Shown here: piece by piece, positions 2,621 to 58,582 of the stretch
Layout: every line of letters starts with the position of its first letter
How positions within the stretch are numbered: the stretch's first letter is position 1
From: Bacillus gobiensis
Lineage (GTDB): Bacteria; Bacillota; Bacilli; Bacillales; Bacillaceae
Length of the DNA: 64,000 nt
Direction: 5' to 3'
NCBI RefSeq assembly: GCF_001278705.1
Contig: NZ_CP012600.1
Span: forward strand, 372,190-436,189
Program-made: the position numbers and the translations under genes
The notes under the pieces: generated by a model
What the model saw: only the letters and a program-made list of their open reading frames with translations
Databases searched by the model: none
What the model was told of the DNA's origin: nothing

Positions 2621-2905
2621 ATGAAGCATTTTCTATTTTTTATTTATCAATTCGTATTTATCAGCATAATTATTGTTACTTTTTATCTGTCTGATGAATT
2701 TATAAATAAGCCGTTTACACATGTTGATTTAATAGCAGTAGTTATAGTATTTATTAGTGTAATGCTCATTTTCAGTTTGATTGATAAGGTGAATAAACGG
2801 TTACATGATATTCATTTGCTTAATAAGATATTATTTTCTCTTTTAGCTTTTGTTTTAGGATTCATATTTGTAGGCATACTGTTTGTAAAATTTAAGATTT
2901 TCTAG
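2621..2905 (+). CDS. Hypothetical three-helix membrane protein
   Basis: A 94-residue, strongly hydrophobic protein with AAGGAGG before the ATG. Three transmembrane segments are evident: about residues 3-24, 35-54 and 69-92. A charged loop (DKVNKRLHDIHLLNK) lies before the last helix. It is probably the last gene of a small operon with the DUF3953-like gene. I do not recognise the family. No cysteines, catalytic motif or signal cleavage site stand out. Confidence 0.6.
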   Translation: MKHFLFFIYQFVFISIIIVTFYLSDEFINKPFTHVDLIAVVIVFISVMLIFSLIDKVNKRLHDIHLLNKILFSLLAFVLGFIFVGILFVKFKIF

Positions 2906-3119
2906 GTATTACAACAATACCTCATTACTAAAGTTGTGAATTTATAGTAATAATTTTGCGTTCAACGTTTCAGAATTAAAAGAGTTGAGTGGGGCCAAAG
3001 AACTATTTTATTATTAAATGACATGTCATCTTATGTCAAGAGAATTATTAGTTCAAGCTCGATAAAAAAATAAAATTTTATTTTTTAAAAAAAGTATTTC
3101 GTGTTTCGAAAAAATTATA

Positions 3120-3148
3120 TTGTTTTATATTTTAAATTTAAGTATACT
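3120..3148 (+). promoter_or_regulatory. Probable sigma-A promoter for the amidohydrolase operon
   Basis: TTGTTT at 3120-3125 and TATACT at 3143-3148 are separated by exactly 17 nt, about 60 nt before the amidohydrolase start. The rest of 2906-3206 is very AT-rich and holds no gene. Confidence 0.5.
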
Positions 3149-3206
3149 AACTTATGAATTCAGATAATAATGAAAATTAAGAATATTAACTAAGAGGCGG
3201 GAAAAA

Positions 3207-4436
3207 ATGAAGAGACAATCAGAAATCAAGCTTTTTCATTGGCATGAGCAATTACTAGAAATGTATGAACAAATGGTTGAATGGAGAAGGCATATGCATC
3301 AGTATCCTGAACTCTCAAATCAAGAGATTGAAACTTCAAACATGATAGCCGGTATTTTATCCGGGTTTGGAATTGATATCCGGACTCGTGTAGGCGGAAT
3401 GGGTGTTGTAGGAACAATTAAAGGAGAAAAGCCTGGAAAAACGATCGCACTTCGGGCAGATTTTGATGCACTCCCTATTCAAGATGAAAAAGAGGTTCCT
3501 TATAAATCAAAGGTTGATGGCGTGATGCATGCTTGCGGTCATGACGGGCATACGGCAACTTTACTCGCTGTTGCGAAAATATTGAATGATCATCGTGACC
3601 AGTTATCGGGGAATGTTGTGCTGCTCCATCAGCATTCTGAAGAATCGTTAGGCGGTGCAAACGAAATGATCGCAGATGGATGTCTTGATGGGGTGGATGT
3701 TGTATTCGGCAATCATTTATGGACGCCGATTCCGACAGGAACGATTTCTTATACGAAAGGGTACACGACTTCTTCCGGAGATGGCTTTCAACTAAAGATC
3801 CAAGGGAAGGGCGGACACGGTTCTTCGCCTCATGAAACCGTCGATGCGATTATCGTTGCCAATCAGATTATTAATCAGCTTCAGCTTATTGTCAGCCGCA
3901 AAATCAATCCGCAAAAAACGGCAGTTGTATCAGTCGGATCATTCCATGCAGGAAATGCGGCTAACATCATCGCTGATTCCGCCGAACTCAAAGGGACTGT
4001 AAGAACCTACGATAAAGAAGTACAGATGCAAATAGAGGATGAAATGAATTCAATTATTAAAGGAATATGCGCGGCACATCACGCGGAATACGAATTCAAA
4101 TATTATCACGGGGTTCCCGGAGTATACAACCATGCTGAAGAAACAGATATTTTTTGCAGCCGCATTAAAGCTACACTGCCTGAATTCAAGTTAGCAGAAG
4201 CTCCGCCCTTATTGGTCAGTGAAGATTTTGGTCGATATTTATTGGAGAGGCCGGGAATGTTTTTCTTCACGGGAGCAGGTAATCAAAATATAAATGCCAT
4301 ATATCCTCACCACCATCCGAAATTTGATTTTGATGAAAGAGCAATGGTGAATGCCGGAAAAGCAATGCTGAGTATCGTGCATCATTATCTCGTGGAAAAA
4401 GCAGAAAGTCCCTTGGCAGATCATGTGAGATTATAA
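3207..4436 (+). CDS. M20 family amidohydrolase (N-acyl amino acid / peptide-type)
   Basis: A 409-aa M20D metallo-amidohydrolase of the hippurate hydrolase/N-acyl-amino-acid deacylase type. Metal-ligand motifs are present in order: MHACGHDGHTATLL around residue 110, HSEES around 146, GNHLW, and a C-terminal HHHPKFDFDE. The dimerisation domain contains GKGGHGSSPHETVDA. It has no signal peptide and should act in the cytoplasm. A GAGGCGGG ribosome site precedes the ATG. It lies 33 nt upstream of an oligopeptide-binding lipoprotein, so the pair probably handles an imported acylated or amidated peptide or amino acid. The exact substrate is unknown. Confidence 0.88.
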   Translation: MKRQSEIKLFHWHEQLLEMYEQMVEWRRHMHQYPELSNQEIETSNMIAGILSGFGIDIRTRVGGMGVVGTIKGEKPGKTIALRADFDALPIQDEKEVPYKSKVDGVMHACGHDGHTATLLAVAKILNDHRDQLSGNVVLLHQHSEESLGGANEMIADGCLDGVDVVFGNHLWTPIPTGTISYTKGYTTSSGDGFQLKIQGKGGHGSSPHETVDAIIVANQIINQLQLIVSRKINPQKTAVVSVGSFHAGNAANIIADSAELKGTVRTYDKEVQMQIEDEMNSIIKGICAAHHAEYEFKYYHGVPGVYNHAEETDIFCSRIKATLPEFKLAEAPPLLVSEDFGRYLLERPGMFFFTGAGNQNINAIYPHHHPKFDFDERAMVNAGKAMLSIVHHYLVEKAESPLADHVRL

Positions 4437-44127: not shown

Positions 44128-44325
44128 CTTTTTCCCCCTTGTCATCAAGCGATTTCTGAGCTTGAATTACTTTAATTATGAAGCCTATCTTTCAGTCTTG
44201 TCAATGGACAACCCTCTTTTTGGAAAGAAGGGCGTTCTTTCGTTAGCATGTAAGAAGACACCTTCGCATAGATTGTATTAGTACCTAGATTAGTACTTGC
44301 ATCAATCAAGATGAGGGAGGTCCTT

Positions 44326-46221
44326 ATGGATATTTTAAAGAAGATCGAGCAGTATAGGGAAGAGGAGCAGCGTCTGAAATGGGAAGGCACCTTCGCTGAT
44401 TATCTGGAAATTATCAAGGAAAACCCGATAGTCGCTCAATCTGCTCATTCGCGAGTTTATAATATGATAAAAGACCATGGAATCGAAGAAAGGACCGGGA
44501 AAAAAACGTATACTTTTTTTGATCGGGAGCTTTTTGGTCTTGAAGAATCGCTGGAACGGCTTGTCGAAGAGTATTTCCATCCCGCTGCCAAACGTTTGGA
44601 CGTCAGAAAAAGAATATTGCTGCTTATGGGTCCGGTCAGCGGCGGAAAATCAACCTTGGTAACGATACTGAAAAGAGGGCTTGAGGCTTACTCCCTCACA
44701 GAACAAGGTGCGGTATACGCAATTAAGGGCTGCCCGATGCACGAAGATCCGCTTCATTTAATCCCGCAGCATTTGCGTGAGGATTTTTACCAAGAGTACG
44801 GAATCAGAATCCAAGGGAATTTGTCACCGCTTAATTTAATGCGCTTGGAAGAGGAGTACGGCGGAAGGATTGAAGATGTCCGAGTGGAACGCATTTTCTT
44901 TTCGGAAGATAAACGGATAGGAATTGGCACGTTCAGCCCGTCCGATCCAAAATCACAGGATATTGCCGATCTGACAGGCAGTATCGACTTTTCAACGATC
45001 GCCGAGTACGGATCCGAATCGGATCCGCGCGCTTATCGATTTGACGGTGAGCTCAATAAAGCAAACAGAGGAATGATGGAATTTCAGGAGATGCTAAAGT
45101 GTGATGAAAAATTTCTCTGGCACCTGCTTTCCCTGACTCAGGAAGGAAATTTTAAAGCGGGAAGATTCGCTTTAATCTCTGCAGATGAACTGATTGTAGC
45201 CCATACGAATGAAACGGAATATCGCTCCTTCATCAGCAATAAAAAGAACGAGGCGCTCCATTCAAGAATTATCGTTATGCCTGTTCCTTATAACTTAAAG
45301 GTGTCTGAAGAGGAACGGATTTATGAAAAAATGATTTCAGAAAGTGACGTGAAAGAGGTTCACATTGCACCGCATACACTGAAGGTTGCCGCGATGTTTT
45401 CGATCATGACTCGCCTGAAGGATCCGAAACGGTCGGACATCAATCTTGTGAAAAAAATGCGACTGTATGATGGAGAAAGCGTAGAAGGCTTTAACTCAGT
45501 AGACGTGGAAGATTTGAAGAAGGAATACAATGATGAAGGCATGAAGGGGATTGATCCGAGGTATGTCATTAACCGCATATCCTCCACGATCATCAGAAAA
45601 AATATGGAATCGATTAATGCGCTTGACGTGCTGCGATCTTTGAAGGATGGGCTCGAGCAGCATCCTTCCATTTCCACAGAGGAACGAGACCGCTATTTGA
45701 ATTTTATTTCGACCGCTAGAAAAGAATACGACGACATTGCGAAAAAAGAGGTTCAAAAAGCGTTTGTCTACTCCTATGAGGAATCCGCCAAAACGTTAAT
45801 GGACAATTATCTGGATAACGTGGAAGCCTATTGCAACAAAAATAAATTAAGAGATCCTCTAACCGGTGAAGAAATGAACCCGGATGAAAAACTAATGAGA
45901 TCAATAGAGGAACAAATCGGCATTTCCGAAAATGCGAAAAAAGCCTTCCGCGAAGAAATCCTGATTCGTATTTCCGCCTATGCGAGAAAAGGAAAACGAT
46001 TCGATTACAACTCTCATGAAAGACTGAGAGAAGCGATTCAGAAAAAGCTATTTGCCGACTTAAAAGATGTGGTTAAAATCACAACCTCAACGAAAACACC
46101 TGATGAACAGCAGCTGAAGAAAGTAAACGAAGTTGTCGCAAGGCTCATAGACGAGCACGGCTATAATTCCACAAGCGCAAATGAACTATTAAAATATGTC
46201 GGAAGCTTGCTAAATCGATAA
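44326..46221 (+). CDS. prkA: PrkA serine protein kinase / AAA+ protease-like protein
   Basis: A 631-aa protein, exactly the usual Bacillus length. The AAA+ core has Walker A LLMGPVSGGKSTLVTILKRG around residue 104, and a kinase-like C-terminal domain (AYARKGKRFDYNSHERLREA). PrkA acts in sporulation; B. subtilis PrkA is reported as a kinase and also as an AAA+ protease acting on Hpr (ScoC). ATG 44326 is preceded by GGGAGG. In B. subtilis yhbH follows directly; here about 3.9 kb intervenes. Confidence 0.96.
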   Translation: MDILKKIEQYREEEQRLKWEGTFADYLEIIKENPIVAQSAHSRVYNMIKDHGIEERTGKKTYTFFDRELFGLEESLERLVEEYFHPAAKRLDVRKRILLLMGPVSGGKSTLVTILKRGLEAYSLTEQGAVYAIKGCPMHEDPLHLIPQHLREDFYQEYGIRIQGNLSPLNLMRLEEEYGGRIEDVRVERIFFSEDKRIGIGTFSPSDPKSQDIADLTGSIDFSTIAEYGSESDPRAYRFDGELNKANRGMMEFQEMLKCDEKFLWHLLSLTQEGNFKAGRFALISADELIVAHTNETEYRSFISNKKNEALHSRIIVMPVPYNLKVSEEERIYEKMISESDVKEVHIAPHTLKVAAMFSIMTRLKDPKRSDINLVKKMRLYDGESVEGFNSVDVEDLKKEYNDEGMKGIDPRYVINRISSTIIRKNMESINALDVLRSLKDGLEQHPSISTEERDRYLNFISTARKEYDDIAKKEVQKAFVYSYEESAKTLMDNYLDNVEAYCNKNKLRDPLTGEEMNPDEKLMRSIEEQIGISENAKKAFREEILIRISAYARKGKRFDYNSHERLREAIQKKLFADLKDVVKITTSTKTPDEQQLKKVNEVVARLIDEHGYNSTSANELLKYVGSLLNR

Positions 46222-46234
46222 TTTGTATAGTAGT

Positions 46235-46270
46235 GACTCAAGGTATGTGATGCCGTGAGTCGTTTTTTTT
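46235..46270 (+). terminator. Terminator of prkA
   Basis: GACTCA...TGAGTC with inner GG/CC pairing, followed by eight T. Confidence 0.8.
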
Positions 46271-46320
46271 GGGGGGGAAATACGGGCAGGGCTTTATAAC
46301 GTATAGAAAGCGAGCAACTC

Positions 46321-46460
46321 GGAATAAATTTTTCAGGAGCTAGGACTGAAATAATACGATCTGGTCGCAATAATCACTCTAGTGGTCGCAAAAAATTAGA
46401 AGGTGGGCCGAATAAATTCCAAACCGGGTCGAATTAATCACAGGGCCAGTCACAAAAGTG
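46321..46460. repeat. Degenerate 21-nt periodic repeat, block A
   Basis: Seven units begin at 46321, 46343, 46363, 46384, 46406, 46427 and 46448, with steps of 20-22 nt. Each opens with a form of GG(T/C)CG(A/C)A(A/T)(A/T)AAT, for example GGTCGCAATAATC, GGTCGCAAAAAATT, GGCCGAATAAATT and GGTCGAATTAATC. The 7-9 nt between heads vary. No ORF is credible here. It shares a 21-nt identical core with block B. Confidence 0.75.
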
Positions 46461-46557
46461 TGCCAACCGGAGGACAGCCTGTCTGAAGAGAGGGCGCATC
46501 GTCAGAAAAATTGTTCAAAGTATAGAAGTGCCACTTTTTTTCGGTGATTTCGAGCCA

Positions 46558-46690
46558 GGACAGAAAAAACGCAAGATTTGTCGCAATTATTTCTCAATTG
46601 GTCACAATAAATTAGAAGGTGGGCCGAATAAAACTGAGTTCGGGTCGAATAATCCCCAAACTAGTCCTAAAACCTCGCGAAAGTCCAATC
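46558..46690. repeat. Degenerate 21-nt periodic repeat, block B
   Basis: Units begin at about 46558, 46579, 46600, 46622, 46643, 46663 and 46682 (steps 19-22 nt): TGTCGCAATTATT, GGTCACAATAAATT, GGCCGAATAAAAC, GGTCGAATAATCC, AGTCCTAAAAC. The run TTAGAAGGTGGGCCGAATAA is identical to block A (46397-46416 there, 46612-46631 here). A terminator follows. Confidence 0.75.
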
Positions 46691-46710
46691 TCCCCGTATA
46701 TTCTCGGTCA

Positions 46711-46741
46711 AATCCCGCACACAAGGTGCGGGATTTTTATT
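46711..46741 (+). terminator. Terminator at the end of the repeat region
   Basis: CCCGCAC/GGTGCGGG with a short loop and ATTTTTATT. No gene lies directly before it. Confidence 0.75.
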
Positions 46742-46894: not shown

Positions 46895-49800
46895 ATGTCA
46901 TGGATTACAAAATGGTCATTTAAAAACAAGGCGGCTGTCTGGATTATGGGAATTATCATTCTCGTCATGGGGATCATCAGTTACATACGGCTGCCGATGG
47001 AATTTTTCCCTTCAACCGATATGCCGATGGTTTCTGTCATTACTACAGGACAGGGAATGGACGCAAATACGATGGAGAGTGAAGTTACCGATCCGATCGA
47101 GCAGGCCCTGGACAGTGTAAAAGGCAAAACGAATATTTTATCTACCTCTGGTGATTCCTTTTCAAATGTACAGGTACATCTGGAAGCAAAAACGGACATG
47201 AAGGAAGCTAAAGCTGAGGTGGAGGATCTGTTAAATGCATTGACCCTTCCACAGAATGTGTCTAAACCTACAATTTCTCAATTAAATACATCAATGATCC
47301 CTGTCTCATATGTATCTTTATCGTTTGAAGGCAGTCTGACAAGCGAAAACATTAAAAAATCCGAAGAAGAAATCGTTCCTCTTTTTAAGGACATAGAGGG
47401 TGTTGCATCTGTTCAAACGATGGGTGTGGCTGAAGACTATGTTTCTGTTACTTTAGACGAAACAAAAATGAAGGAAAGCAATGTATCGGTTGAGCAAATC
47501 ATGACGCTTTTACAAGGCCAGAACCTAAACGCTTCCATTGGTGAAAAAAATATCGATGGAAGATCGACGAATGTAAAAGTAGTAGGGCAGGTAAATAATA
47601 TTGATGAATTAAAGAATGCTGAAATTGTACCATCAGTGCCATTAAAGAATATAGCTAACGTTGAAATCAAAAAGCCGGAAGATTCGCTCACAAGGATTAA
47701 TGGCGAGGGCGGACTAATCTTAGTCGTAACAAAAGACAGTCAGTCGAATGCTGTTACAGTCAGTCATAAAGTAAACGAATTAAGTGATAAAATCAATGAA
47801 GATAATAAAGGCGAGCTGCAATCGAATGTAATTTTGGAAACTGCCGATACGGTTGAGTCGTCTGTTCACAGCATGATGAATGAAGTGCTTCTTGGAGCTC
47901 TATTCGCTACTATTGTTATTATGATCTTTCTGCGAAATCTTAAATCTACATTCATTACGATCGTGTCGATCCCTTTATCTCTCGGACTTACTCTGTTTCT
48001 TTTGTCCGTCTCGGGTGTCACGCTTAATATTCTTACCCTAGGCGGAGTGGCAGTTGCCGTCGGAAGGCTCGTAGATGATAGTATCGTTGTTATTGAAAAT
48101 ATTTTTAGAAAGTCGCAGAATGAAAAATTTTCAGTTTCCATGATCATCGACGCGACAAAAGAAGTAGGGAGTGCCATTACAGCATCAACCTTAACAACTG
48201 TAGCAGTATTTTTGCCGATGGGGTTAGTCAACGGAGGACTACAGGACTTGCTTCTCCCATTTGCCTTGACTATTACCTATTCACTGCTTGCGTCCCTGCT
48301 CGTGGCATTGACGGTCGTTCCTTTGATGAGTGCGGGTTTATTAAAAAACAGCAAACTGAAAGAGCACATACCGTCCAAACGATTCGGAAGTTTTTTGACC
48401 TGGTCGTTAAGTCATAAACTGATTGTCCTTGGAACTGCTTTCGTCTTGTTTGCCGGTTCGATCGGCGCCTATATGGTTCTTCCGAAAGGTTCTATAGCAA
48501 AGACAAAAAATGACTACGTGGTAGCTACTCTCGATTATCCAAACGAAGTACCAATTGAGGATGTAAAGGATGGCGCTTTGACTCTTGAGAAGCATATCTT
48601 GGAGCAAGAAGGAGTAGAACATGCTTATCTTCAACTGGGTAATTCAGATGACTCTGCATCGTATGGTCAAATCAGTTCACCAACTCAAGCGCAATTTATG
48701 GTGACCTTAAAAGAAGGAACGGATGAAGAGAAATTTTTGCAAAACATTACGGATGAAAAAGATCAATACCCGGAAGCACAGCTTAGTGCTACAGGAGCTT
48801 CCATGATGGGCGGAGGGCAAACAGAGATTACGGTTGATGTACTCGGAGACGATCCAGAGACTCTGTCAGAGGTTGCGCTTACGATTAAAGACAAGATAGA
48901 TGGGATTGAAGGAATCGAAAAAGTAACTTCAAATCAGGAGGATCAAAAGACGGTCTATTCATTTGCCGTAAAACCGGGTGCAACGACAACGGACCAAGTC
49001 GTTCAGCAAGCAGGTACGCTTCTCAATCAAACACCAATCGGGACAGTAGAAGTGAATGACCAGCAAGCGGACGTAAAAGTAGAGCCGCTATTCGATCCGA
49101 AAACAGAAAAAGACCTGGCAGATCTGCCGGTTGCTACTCAAACGGGTATGGCGTCCATATCTGATATCGCAACCTTAACCAAAGAAGAAGAACCGACTAA
49201 TATCTATCATAAGGACAACGAACAATATGTAAGAGTTACAGCAAATGTTGATCCAAAACAGGTTTCTGATATCTCGGCAGAAATTTCAACAGCCATCTTT
49301 GGCAATAATACAGAAGAAGGGATCGATCTCCCTGATGATACGGAAGTGCTTGTCGGCGGGGCAAGCGCAGATCAATCGAGCGATTTCAGCGATATGTTTA
49401 TTACGATGTTGGCTTCGATCGCAATCGTATTTGTCATCATGGTCGTAACCTTTAAAACGATTCGTACGCCAATAGCTATTCTTTTCTCGTTGCCGCTCGC
49501 TGCGATCGGTGCGATACTTGCTTTGATTATTACGAGAATTCCGGTCGATGTGACATCGCTATTAGGGGCTTTGATGCTAATCGGAGTAGTCGTGACCAAT
49601 GCAATTGTATTGCTTGACCGTGTGAAGCAAAATGAGGAGAGCATGAGCATTCGAGATTCATTGGTAGAAGCTGCGTCAGTACGTATGCGGCCGATTATCA
49701 TGACAGCAGTTGCCACAATCTGTGCGATGCTTCCGTTACTGTTCAAAGAATCTGAATCTGGAAATCTCGTCTCAGGAAGCCTGGCGGTTGTTGTTATCGG

Positions 49801-49927
49801 AGGACTTGGCGTGTCGACCGTATTAACGCTTATAGTCGTTCCAGTAATTTATGAACTGCTGTATTTCAAAAAGTCAAAACGTGAGCGAAAAGCGCTTGAA
49901 GAAACGAAAACAAGAATCAGTATATAA
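46895..49927 (+). CDS. RND-family efflux pump (SwrC/AcrB-like)
   Basis: A 1010-aa proton-driven exporter with the RND plan: helix 1 (residues about 13-30), a large extracytoplasmic loop, helices 2-6, a second loop, and helices 7-12. It has LPMEFFPSTDMPMVSV after helix 1, and GGVAVAVGRLVDDSIVVIENIF with the proton-relay acidic pair in helix 4. Its closest known relative by pattern is Bacillus SwrC/YerP, which exports surfactin and other lipophilic compounds. GAAGGAG precedes the ATG. It is monocistronic and interrupts the prkA-yhbH order. Substrate unknown. Confidence 0.92.
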   Translation: MSWITKWSFKNKAAVWIMGIIILVMGIISYIRLPMEFFPSTDMPMVSVITTGQGMDANTMESEVTDPIEQALDSVKGKTNILSTSGDSFSNVQVHLEAKTDMKEAKAEVEDLLNALTLPQNVSKPTISQLNTSMIPVSYVSLSFEGSLTSENIKKSEEEIVPLFKDIEGVASVQTMGVAEDYVSVTLDETKMKESNVSVEQIMTLLQGQNLNASIGEKNIDGRSTNVKVVGQVNNIDELKNAEIVPSVPLKNIANVEIKKPEDSLTRINGEGGLILVVTKDSQSNAVTVSHKVNELSDKINEDNKGELQSNVILETADTVESSVHSMMNEVLLGALFATIVIMIFLRNLKSTFITIVSIPLSLGLTLFLLSVSGVTLNILTLGGVAVAVGRLVDDSIVVIENIFRKSQNEKFSVSMIIDATKEVGSAITASTLTTVAVFLPMGLVNGGLQDLLLPFALTITYSLLASLLVALTVVPLMSAGLLKNSKLKEHIPSKRFGSFLTWSLSHKLIVLGTAFVLFAGSIGAYMVLPKGSIAKTKNDYVVATLDYPNEVPIEDVKDGALTLEKHILEQEGVEHAYLQLGNSDDSASYGQISSPTQAQFMVTLKEGTDEEKFLQNITDEKDQYPEAQLSATGASMMGGGQTEITVDVLGDDPETLSEVALTIKDKIDGIEGIEKVTSNQEDQKTVYSFAVKPGATTTDQVVQQAGTLLNQTPIGTVEVNDQQADVKVEPLFDPKTEKDLADLPVATQTGMASISDIATLTKEEEPTNIYHKDNEQYVRVTANVDPKQVSDISAEISTAIFGNNTEEGIDLPDDTEVLVGGASADQSSDFSDMFITMLASIAIVFVIMVVTFKTIRTPIAILFSLPLAAIGAILALIITRIPVDVTSLLGALMLIGVVVTNAIVLLDRVKQNEESMSIRDSLVEAASVRMRPIIMTAVATICAMLPLLFKESESGNLVSGSLAVVVIGGLGVSTVLTLIVVPVIYELLYFKKSKRERKALEETKTRISI

Positions 49928-50155: not shown

Positions 50156-51325
50156 ATGACCCATGAAGATAATGGCCATTTTGCAATTTCCCAAGAAGAC
50201 TGGTCCCTCCATCGTAAAGGCTACGATGATCAAATACGTCACCAGGAAAAAGTTCAGGAAGCTATAAAAAACAATCTGCCTGATTTGGTGACAGAGGAAA
50301 GCATTATCATGTCCAACGGAAGAGACGTCGTAAAAATTCCAATTCGTTCACTTGATGAGTATAAAATCAGATACAACTATGACAAAAACAAACATGTCGG
50401 GCAGGGTGATGGGGATAGTCAGATTGGTGATGTGGTGGCACGTGACGGTGCAGAGAAAAAGCAGGGTGCCGGAAAAGGATCAGGGGCAGGAGATCAATCA
50501 GGCGAAGATTACTATGAAGCCGAAGTGTCGCTAATGGATTTAGAGGAGGCTCTTTTCAGAGAGATGGAGCTCCCGAATTTGCAGCAAAAAGAAAGAGACA
50601 ATATTGTTGTTGAAGATATAGAATTTAATGATATTCGCAAGACGGGGTTAACTGGAAACATTGATAAGAAACGTACGATGCTTTCCGCTTTTAAGAGAAA
50701 CGCAATGACGGGTAATCGCTCGTTTTATCCGATTTATCCTGAAGATCTCAAATATAAGACGTGGAACGAAATTGTAAAGCCTGATTCAAAAGCCGTCGTT
50801 CTCGCGATGATGGATACAAGTGGAAGTATGGGTGTATGGGAAAAGTATATGGCCAGAAGCTTCTTTTTCTGGATGACCAGATTTCTTAGAACAAAGTACG
50901 AAACGGTAGAAATAGAATTTATTGCTCACCACACAGAGGCTAAGGTTGTTCCTGAGGAGGATTTCTTTTCAAAGGGAGAAAGCGGAGGTACGATTTGTTC
51001 TTCCGTTTATAGAAAATCATTAGAAATCATAGATCAAAAATACGATCCGGCCAGATACAACATTTACCCGTTTCATTTCTCGGATGGGGATAACTTAACA
51101 TCAGATAATGCCAGGTGCGTCAAGCTTGTCAACGAGCTTATGAAAAAAACCAATCTGTTTTGCTACGGCGAAGTCAATCAGTATAACCGCCATTCAACTC
51201 TCATGTCGGCCTATAAAAATATAAATGATGAAAAATTCAAATACTATATCCTAAAACAAAAATCCGATGTGTTCCAAGCGTTAAAAAGCTTTTTTTATAA
51301 AGAAGAAGCCGCGAAGCTTGCTTAA
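50156..51325 (+). CDS. yhbH: Sporulation protein YhbH (DUF444)
   Basis: A 389-aa protein of the YhbH/YeaH family. It has a glycine-rich, charged linker (about residues 90-115, [19 protein letters not shown]) and a von Willebrand A-like domain with a MIDAS-type DTSGSMG around residue 223. It is made during sporulation and functionally linked to PrkA. GGGAGGGG precedes the ATG. It ends at a terminator. A classic prkA neighbour, here separated by the repeat blocks and the pump. Confidence 0.95.
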
Positions 51326-58027: not shown

Positions 58028-58582
58028 ATGATAAACAAAAAATTAGCGCTATCAGCTATTTTAGTACCATTTATCCTCACTGCCGGCTGTGGAATGAATA
58101 ATGCAGGGGATAACGGACGACGGGACAACAATCCTTATGAAAATGTAAATTACAGGGATATGAACAGACCGGATAACGTGGGCAATGATATGGCTGATGA
58201 TAACCAAAATCAAGGTAACCAAAATCAAGGTAACCAAAATGAAGATAACCAAATGAAGGTTGCCGATGAAGCTGCTGACAAAGTGAATGAAGTGGAAGGC
58301 GTCGAAAACGCGACAGTTATCGTTACTGAAAATAACGCATTTGTTGCCGTAGCTTTAGAAGGAAATAAAGAAGGAAATATTACAGATGATGTAAAAAATA
58401 AAATTTCTGATAAAGTAAAATCAACCGACGAGAGCATCAATAACGTTTACGTCTCAGCGAATCCGGATTTCTTTGATCGCATGCAGGATTACGGAAATCG
58501 GATCAACCAAGGAGAACCGATTGCAGGATTCTTTGATGAGTTTGGAGAAACTGTACGCAGAGTTTTTCCTACAGCTGAATAA
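58028..58582 (+). CDS. Sporulation lipoprotein, YhcN/YlaJ family
   Basis: A 184-aa spore-membrane lipoprotein. The signal ends ILTAGCGM. An Asn/Asp/Gln-rich linker contains a tandem NQGNQ-type repeat (about residues 58-75, from a 15-bp DNA repeat). The family core then follows (AADKVNEVEGVENATVIVTE, NNAFVAVALEG), ending PIAGFFDEFGETVRRVFP. Members are found in the inner spore membrane. GGAGG precedes the ATG. It is probably transcribed during sporulation. Confidence 0.9.
   Translation: MINKKLALSAILVPFILTAGCGMNNAGDNGRRDNNPYENVNYRDMNRPDNVGNDMADDNQNQGNQNQGNQNEDNQMKVADEAADKVNEVEGVENATVIVTENNAFVAVALEGNKEGNITDDVKNKISDKVKSTDESINNVYVSANPDFFDRMQDYGNRINQGEPIAGFFDEFGETVRRVFPTAE

Follow-up and report, generated by a model that had tools for sequence, protein, structure and literature searches.

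Phased 21-nt repeat arrays at gene ends of Bacillus gobiensis and its relatives as candidate protein-binding sites

Two blocks of degenerate DNA with a 21-nt period lie between prkA and an RND permease gene of Bacillus gobiensis, and they are members of a chromosomal class of gene-end arrays that is wider than a single repeat family. Their best explanation, which we hold with evenly divided confidence, is that a protein binds the recurrent unit heads on one face of the DNA and marks the end of the gene. The window (the whole stretch of DNA that was analysed, 64,000 nt) carries the following features at this locus, given in window coordinates unless the genome is named:

44311-46221, + strand: prkA, upstream of the array and pointing into it (Pfam AAA_PrkA and PrkA).
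46235-46270, + strand: terminator-like hairpin with eight T, 3' of prkA (read in the sequence; the consensus scan omits it).
46320-46468, + strand: array block 1, with seven heads at 46320, 46343, 46363, 46384, 46405, 46426 and 46448 (autocorrelation, head placement and a profile match at genome positions 418512-418628).
46393-46416, + strand, identical to 46609-46632: 24-nt stretch common to both blocks (letter comparison).
46469-46539, + strand: linker between the blocks, without clear units (read in the sequence).
46540-46683, + strand: array block 2, with a degenerate unit at about 46540 and heads at 46558, 46579, 46600, 46621, 46642 and 46663 (autocorrelation, head placement and a profile match at genome positions 418735-418846).
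46710-46736, + strand: terminator-like hairpin 3' of block 2 (consensus scan).
46895-49927, + strand: RND permease gene, downstream (Pfam ACR_tran; the best NCBIfam match, RND_permease_2, is below its cut-off).

The 21-nt periodicity of both blocks is real. Among 60 lags, lag 21 ranked first in both blocks (z 5.5 and 5.3) and across the region as a whole (z 6.7), with lag 42 second each time, and the autocorrelation maximum was reached by none of 500 dinucleotide shuffles; the phasing thus survived the comparison with shuffled sequence on which the initial annotation had staked it. The heads of block 1 are separated by steps of 23, 20, 21, 21, 21 and 22 nt, and the six clear heads of block 2 by five steps of 21 nt. 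That annotation had counted seven units per block; block 1 has seven placeable heads, and block 2 has six besides the degenerate unit. The GGTCG-type heads that it described are present, but the heads vary more widely and include GGGCAGAA, GGTCACAA and GGACAGAA, and the stretch identical between the blocks exists but is longer than the 20 nt first reported. Tandem Repeats Finder, run at score 30, listed nothing in the array region, and a repeat search of the region returned one family, with copies 61% and 80% identical to its reference. The top-scoring tandem repeat of the window is found at 58201-58260, where the 15-nt unit TAACCAAAATCAAGG is present in 3.5 copies.

Both blocks are enclosed by the two + strand hairpins, and the context script also flagged an upstream + strand terminator at this locus. 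The downstream hairpin has 11 pairs, 6 of them G-C, and was the one such structure found against 0.7 expected in shuffles; it overlaps a weak Rfam match (E 0.22) that falls below the family cut-off. In all of the 29 genus mates read at prkA, out of 43 with a prkA match, prkA is closely followed by a DUF444 gene, which lies at 50156-51325 in the window. Only in B. gobiensis, among the genomes read, do the arrays and the RND gene stand between the two. The RND permease gene looks either inserted here or lost elsewhere.

A blastn search of the region against its own genome (4.6 Mb, one contig) gave weak matches, several of which were arrays of the same kind on reading. A sequence-only profile built on 13 arrays (family A) recovered 16 arrays at E <= 1.2e-12, the next match having an E value of 8e-5. 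These comprise the 13 training arrays and three new ones and occupy ten loci, so that recurrence elsewhere in the genome, the other half of the same test, was found as well. The 79 head-to-head steps in the 16 matches measure 21 nt in 52 cases, 20 nt in 8 and 22 nt in 2, and the remaining 17 take other values, partly through extra or half-unit calls; the 19-22-nt intervals first described were of the right order, but inside arrays the step is mostly exactly 21 nt. Units of the same index are more alike across loci (0.67) than are different units within one array (0.53), indicating that family A spread as whole arrays. Weaker profile matches in the same genome include arrays with other heads, for example GGTGCAATTAA and GGCACATAAAC. 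On reading, the inter-array linkers of loci L005 and L018 share a stretch with an inverted repeat of the CCGCTG...CAGCGG type, so what was dispersed may extend beyond the array.

The period also emerged from scans that used no motif. In 400 kb of evenly spaced sequence from the B. gobiensis genome (105-nt windows, at least 48% matches), intergenic lag 20 was found at 4 places and lag 21 at 4, and no other lag between 10 and 63 exceeded 2. A second scan of six genomes (84-nt windows, 50% matches) counted lags 20 and 21 at 3 and 3 places in B. gobiensis, 2 and 6 in genome G322, 4 and 5 in G386 and 0 and 1 in the congeneric G004, and at no place in G802 (another order) or G030. Outside these lags no count exceeded 2, except for the double period of 40-42, which reached 3. 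Lags 20-21 therefore stand out in the intergenic DNA of three of the six sampled genomes. Some peaks were rejected on reading: 3 of 7 in B. gobiensis (L129:19783, L139:497 and L148:2137), 1 of 7 in G322 (L165:16686), 3 of 9 in G386 (L185:4896, L188:1447 and L193:3627), both in G004 and the single one in G802. The arrays accepted numbered 5 in the 400 kb of B. gobiensis (one of them, in L129, from the 105-nt scan), 6 in G322 and 6 in G386, which extrapolates, from readings of small samples, to about 57-72 arrays per genome. Several head words coexist in each of these three genomes.

Beyond the genome of origin, the family-A profile (E <= 0.001) matched 56 of 397 genomes in the order; these fall into 23 of 135 genera, and 29 order loci were read. 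In a phylum sample it matched 8 of 398 genomes. Both figures count B. gobiensis itself, and a profile of one head undercounts other heads and admits some chance matches. Head A matched 4 of 44 genomes of the genus, but the three other than B. gobiensis share one gene-junction site, which is not an array. Profile search and reading found no family-A array in the 43 other genus genomes, indicating that the arrays are not essential. The proposal of a dispersed family specific to this lineage is accordingly right for this head word (1 of 44 genus genomes) but too narrow for the architecture: other genera have the same build, with a GC-containing head, an AATAA-like tract and a 20-21-nt step, and their own head words, several per genome. 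A very regular array comes from genome G114, where positions 2771-3253 of locus L293, 3' of a gene with its terminator, hold 23 heads (GGGTTGAATTA...) spaced at exactly 21 nt. The L293 array has an antisense open frame of 190 codons, and long open frames of this sort could be misannotated as repeat proteins.

Searches of other sequence collections returned little. Blastn of the region against 40 relatives matched three, at E 0.001-0.005 and always in the linker (query positions 163-219). The head-A pair pattern hit seven stretches of a genome-contig collection with one match each, one in Alicyclobacillus and six in other phyla; we take these as chance, in a search that may omit the genome of origin and very near records. 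Of three patterns run against viral contigs, one hit two stretches, with a single match in each, and the others hit none; the three arrays searched against a plasmid collection had no match.

The evidence that carries most weight is the pattern of divergence between species. In one genus, 12 of whose 16 genomes had a match, an array is found between the same two genes, 3' of a terminator. Across ten species of this genus, five heads (AAAGTYACAAT) are set at steps of 21-21-21-21 in ten of ten, and none of 95 array columns is gapped, whereas the 3' flank has gaps in 37 of 81. Ten head positions have a pairwise diversity of 0.044, compared with 0.282 in the spacers, and the C/T position of the head varies freely (0.391). 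The contrast between heads and spacers was reached by none of 10,000 permutations and none of 94 circular shifts, in tests that did not model the species tree. An eleventh species (L108), which the ten-row conservation count leaves out, has both flanks and lacks the array, and at two further loci of the same genus arrays differ by whole 21-nt units. The observation made in B. gobiensis, that spacing is kept while the bases between heads are free, was borne out between species at the ten-species locus.

Three comparisons of three species each had head columns picked by motif, a choice that favours contrast. Heads and spacers differed in a second genus (0.100 vs 0.277) and in a third (0.203 vs 0.382), and hardly at a second locus of the ten-species genus (0.085 vs 0.103). 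Gapped columns in the three-species alignments numbered 34 of 136, 4 of 156 and 22 of 155, in part as whole units. Conservation of heads and spacing is thus shown for the single locus compared in ten species, and small samples agree with it at two of the three other loci.

The arrays also share a position. From loci L030-L091 we assembled 55 rows, reduced to 40 by removing 15 same-locus or orthologous rows; L053, L055, L058 and L060-L062 were left out as coding, gene junction or chance on reading, and L069 because of a contig end. Relatedness persists among a few of the 40 (L065 with L087; L075, L078 and L085 as one group). At 31 of the 40 loci, the gene lying upstream with respect to the A-rich strand is directed into the array. 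Tandem pairs account for 16 loci with and 6 against the A-rich strand (polarity, p 0.052), convergent pairs for 15 and divergent pairs for 3. In three genomes, background intervals of at least 200 nt were convergent in 44 of 342 cases and divergent in 64 of 342, making convergent pairs enriched (15 of 40; p 0.0002) and divergent ones depleted at p 0.08. Simple scripts, run with no shuffled control, placed a terminator-like hairpin between gene and array at 25 of the 31 loci with an inward-pointing gene and at 2 of the 9 others. The hint in the initial annotation that such arrays follow terminators is right for most loci.

A unit head of about 8-11 bp (here GGTCGCAATAA and variants) recurs every 21 bp, or two helical turns, a step that would place the heads on one face of the DNA. 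We propose that a sequence-specific DNA-binding protein sits side by side on the heads and forms a cooperative, DNA-bending row. Since most arrays follow terminators and convergent gene pairs are enriched around them, such a row would most probably serve to mark or insulate the end of the transcription unit, perhaps as a roadblock to read-through or antisense transcription, or by anchoring local supercoils. Repeated binding of a protein to one face would be expected to leave a conserved word of 8-11 bp, spacers that are freer and a constant step of two turns, features that neutral decay does not produce at the best-tested locus. Of the three readings first offered (a phased protein-binding array, a dispersed lineage-specific family and curved DNA), the protein-binding array fits best, judged by heads and spacing that are conserved between species while spacers vary.

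A wrapping or bending site, in which phased A/T patches wrap gyrase or a nucleoid-associated protein at gene ends and the head word is minor, is to our mind unlikely, although several measurements point towards it. AA/TT power at 10-11 nt averaged 6.65 in 55 arrays, same-locus rows included, against 2.71 in 490 intergenic windows of the B. gobiensis genome. It also exceeded phase-permuted controls in which the 21-nt period was preserved (z 1.15, standard error 0.18), indicating that the unit tends to carry two A/T patches half a unit apart. The summed bend was estimated at 76 against 46 with a wedge model, and in this explanation supercoils gather at gene ends, where the arrays lie. Six or seven units span 126-147 bp, compared with the roughly 130 bp of the E. 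coli gyrase motif (PMC6379681). Against wrapping, the heads are conserved base by base at the ten-species locus, and spacer differences there switch between A/T and G/C at a frequency of 0.76, compared with 0.72 in the flank, so what is preserved at this one locus is not a pure A/T-G/C wrapping code. Array length, moreover, runs from a few units to more than 20, and arrays are missing in related genomes that have gyrase (the G004 sample). The initial suggestion of curved DNA thus stands as regards A/T phasing, but spacer substitutions ignore A/T-versus-G/C class.

We regard it as improbable, too, that the arrays are selfish or neutral dispersed tandem repeats, which slippage and recombination multiply and extend and which are tolerated at gene ends without function. 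The spread of family A as whole arrays, its patchy presence among genomes, the gain and loss of units and the clean absence from L108 would all suit such repeats, and promoter avoidance alone would yield the gene-end bias. Neutral decay, however, erodes heads and spacers alike and admits any indel, the opposite of what the ten-species locus displays, and a vehicle is missing: the B. gobiensis genome has no Y1_Tnp (RAYT) gene, the arrays have no palindrome and the three searched have no plasmid match.

Still less probable is an element that acts as RNA, such as a small RNA or 3' UTR in which unstructured binding sites for a protein are repeated. In 16 of 22 tandem pairs the upstream gene has the A-rich strand as its sense strand (the p 0.052 given above), the arrays of the window lie between two + strand hairpins, and the heads are predicted to be single-stranded. 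But the hairpin precedes the array at 25 of the 31 inward-gene loci, a count made with no shuffled control, which would leave most arrays untranscribed; unstructured RNA offers no evident reason for an exact two-turn step, and the region has one promoter-like site against 1.8 expected. As for structured RNA or a known Rfam family, a consensus fold of 13 arrays contained 0 pairs, eight single folds had z values from -2.2 to +2.4 and no Rfam match reached its cut-off in 19 loci, the sub-threshold match at the terminator hairpin being the only one, and this candidate was rejected. Rho sites on the T-rich strand were set aside on reading only, as the spacers of the ten-species genus make that strand G-rich.

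A heptapeptide-repeat protein (21 nt being seven codons) can be dismissed as highly improbable, in keeping with the initial view that the DNA is non-coding: some arrays have long open stretches (in L293, 190 codons) and, as read, the C/T position that varies freely in the head falls on the third base of codons in one frame, but 20-nt or mixed steps break the frame so that none is constant across families, spacer divergence by codon position (0.38, 0.26 and 0.27) has no third-position excess, no multiple of three other than 21 and 42 stands out among lags 12-45, and two such ORFs have no Pfam match, the NCBIfam matches to one of them being far below cut-off.

Several observations bear directly on the head-binding protein that we favour. 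The main difficulty is that several different heads occur within one genome, which runs counter to one binding protein; several related proteins may lie behind them. The second locus of the ten-species genus, with its nearly equal heads and spacers, is a further counterpoint. The free variation at the C/T position of the head, a tandem polarity of only 16 against 6 (p 0.052), a divergent depletion at p 0.08 and the lack of the family in the other 43 genus genomes also weigh against it. Placement of the heads on the same side of the DNA, as first claimed, suits the 21-nt families, whereas a 20-nt step would rotate each successive head by about 34 degrees, off one face of free B-DNA. No gene for an array-binding protein was found among the neighbours at the two loci read (L293 and L294). 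More broadly, and only as a tentative reading, Bacillus relatives may carry an undescribed gene-end class of tens of phased arrays per genome, with an architecture common across genera (one head per two helical turns, mostly 3' of terminators) and lineage-private words, several of them coexisting in one genome, which would point to fast-evolving architectural proteins that punctuate transcription units as a bacterial analogue of boundary elements. If protein-bound, the arrays would represent a layer of chromosome punctuation in Bacillus relatives that has escaped notice, since repeat finders miss units as degenerate as these and each lineage uses a different word. A literature search whose coverage left out most subscription journals and bioRxiv found no description of such arrays. 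The ten-species array is a ready bait for its candidate protein.

Comparison with known systems sets the arrays apart from each while leaving partial likenesses. CRISPR loci combine cas genes with repeats of about 23-50 nt that are separated by unique spacers; by that definition, and repeat size in particular, a 21-nt unit with an 8-11-nt head is not CRISPR, as initially judged. The bcr repeats of the B. cereus group and the cyanobacterial heptamer repeats are lineage-specific intergenic repeats, but bcr1 is a longer element of mobile type and the heptamers are contiguous, and neither is known for conserved heads that recur every 21 nt with free bases between them. REP/BIME elements and their RAYT transposases (PMC3733652) offer a likeness in being short, many-copy, extragenic repeats; REPs are palindromic. 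The arrays here have no inverted repeat (0 pairs between 46200 and 46800), and Y1_Tnp (PF01797) has 0 matches in the B. gobiensis genome, so that neither a palindromic unit nor a RAYT gene was found and this candidate was rejected. Y1_Tnp occurs in 12 of 15 genomes, both with and without family-A arrays. G322 has seven Y1_Tnp matches, and the identical scores of five suggest that a transposase was copied recently.

The E. coli gyrase motif spans about 130 bp and has a 10.75-bp GC periodicity in its arms (PMC6379681). Both systems have a helically phased A/T-G/C pattern over a similar length, and A/T phasing at 10-11 bp was found here; the difference is that the gyrase motif is not known to have a conserved word per two turns, while heads are conserved base by base at the locus tested here. 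Selection on the A/T-G/C pattern rather than on a word was rejected for that one locus in ten species on the switching frequencies given above. Iterons and plasmid centromere-like repeats are tandem direct repeats of about 20-22 bp, helix-phased and cooperatively bound by protein, and they are located at an origin of replication or a partition locus, next to the gene for the protein that binds them. The present arrays differ in lying at many chromosomal gene ends, with no cognate gene at L293 or L294 by reading and no plasmid match for three arrays; what they have in common with iterons and centromere repeats, and what was found on testing, is phased direct repeats with conserved heads.
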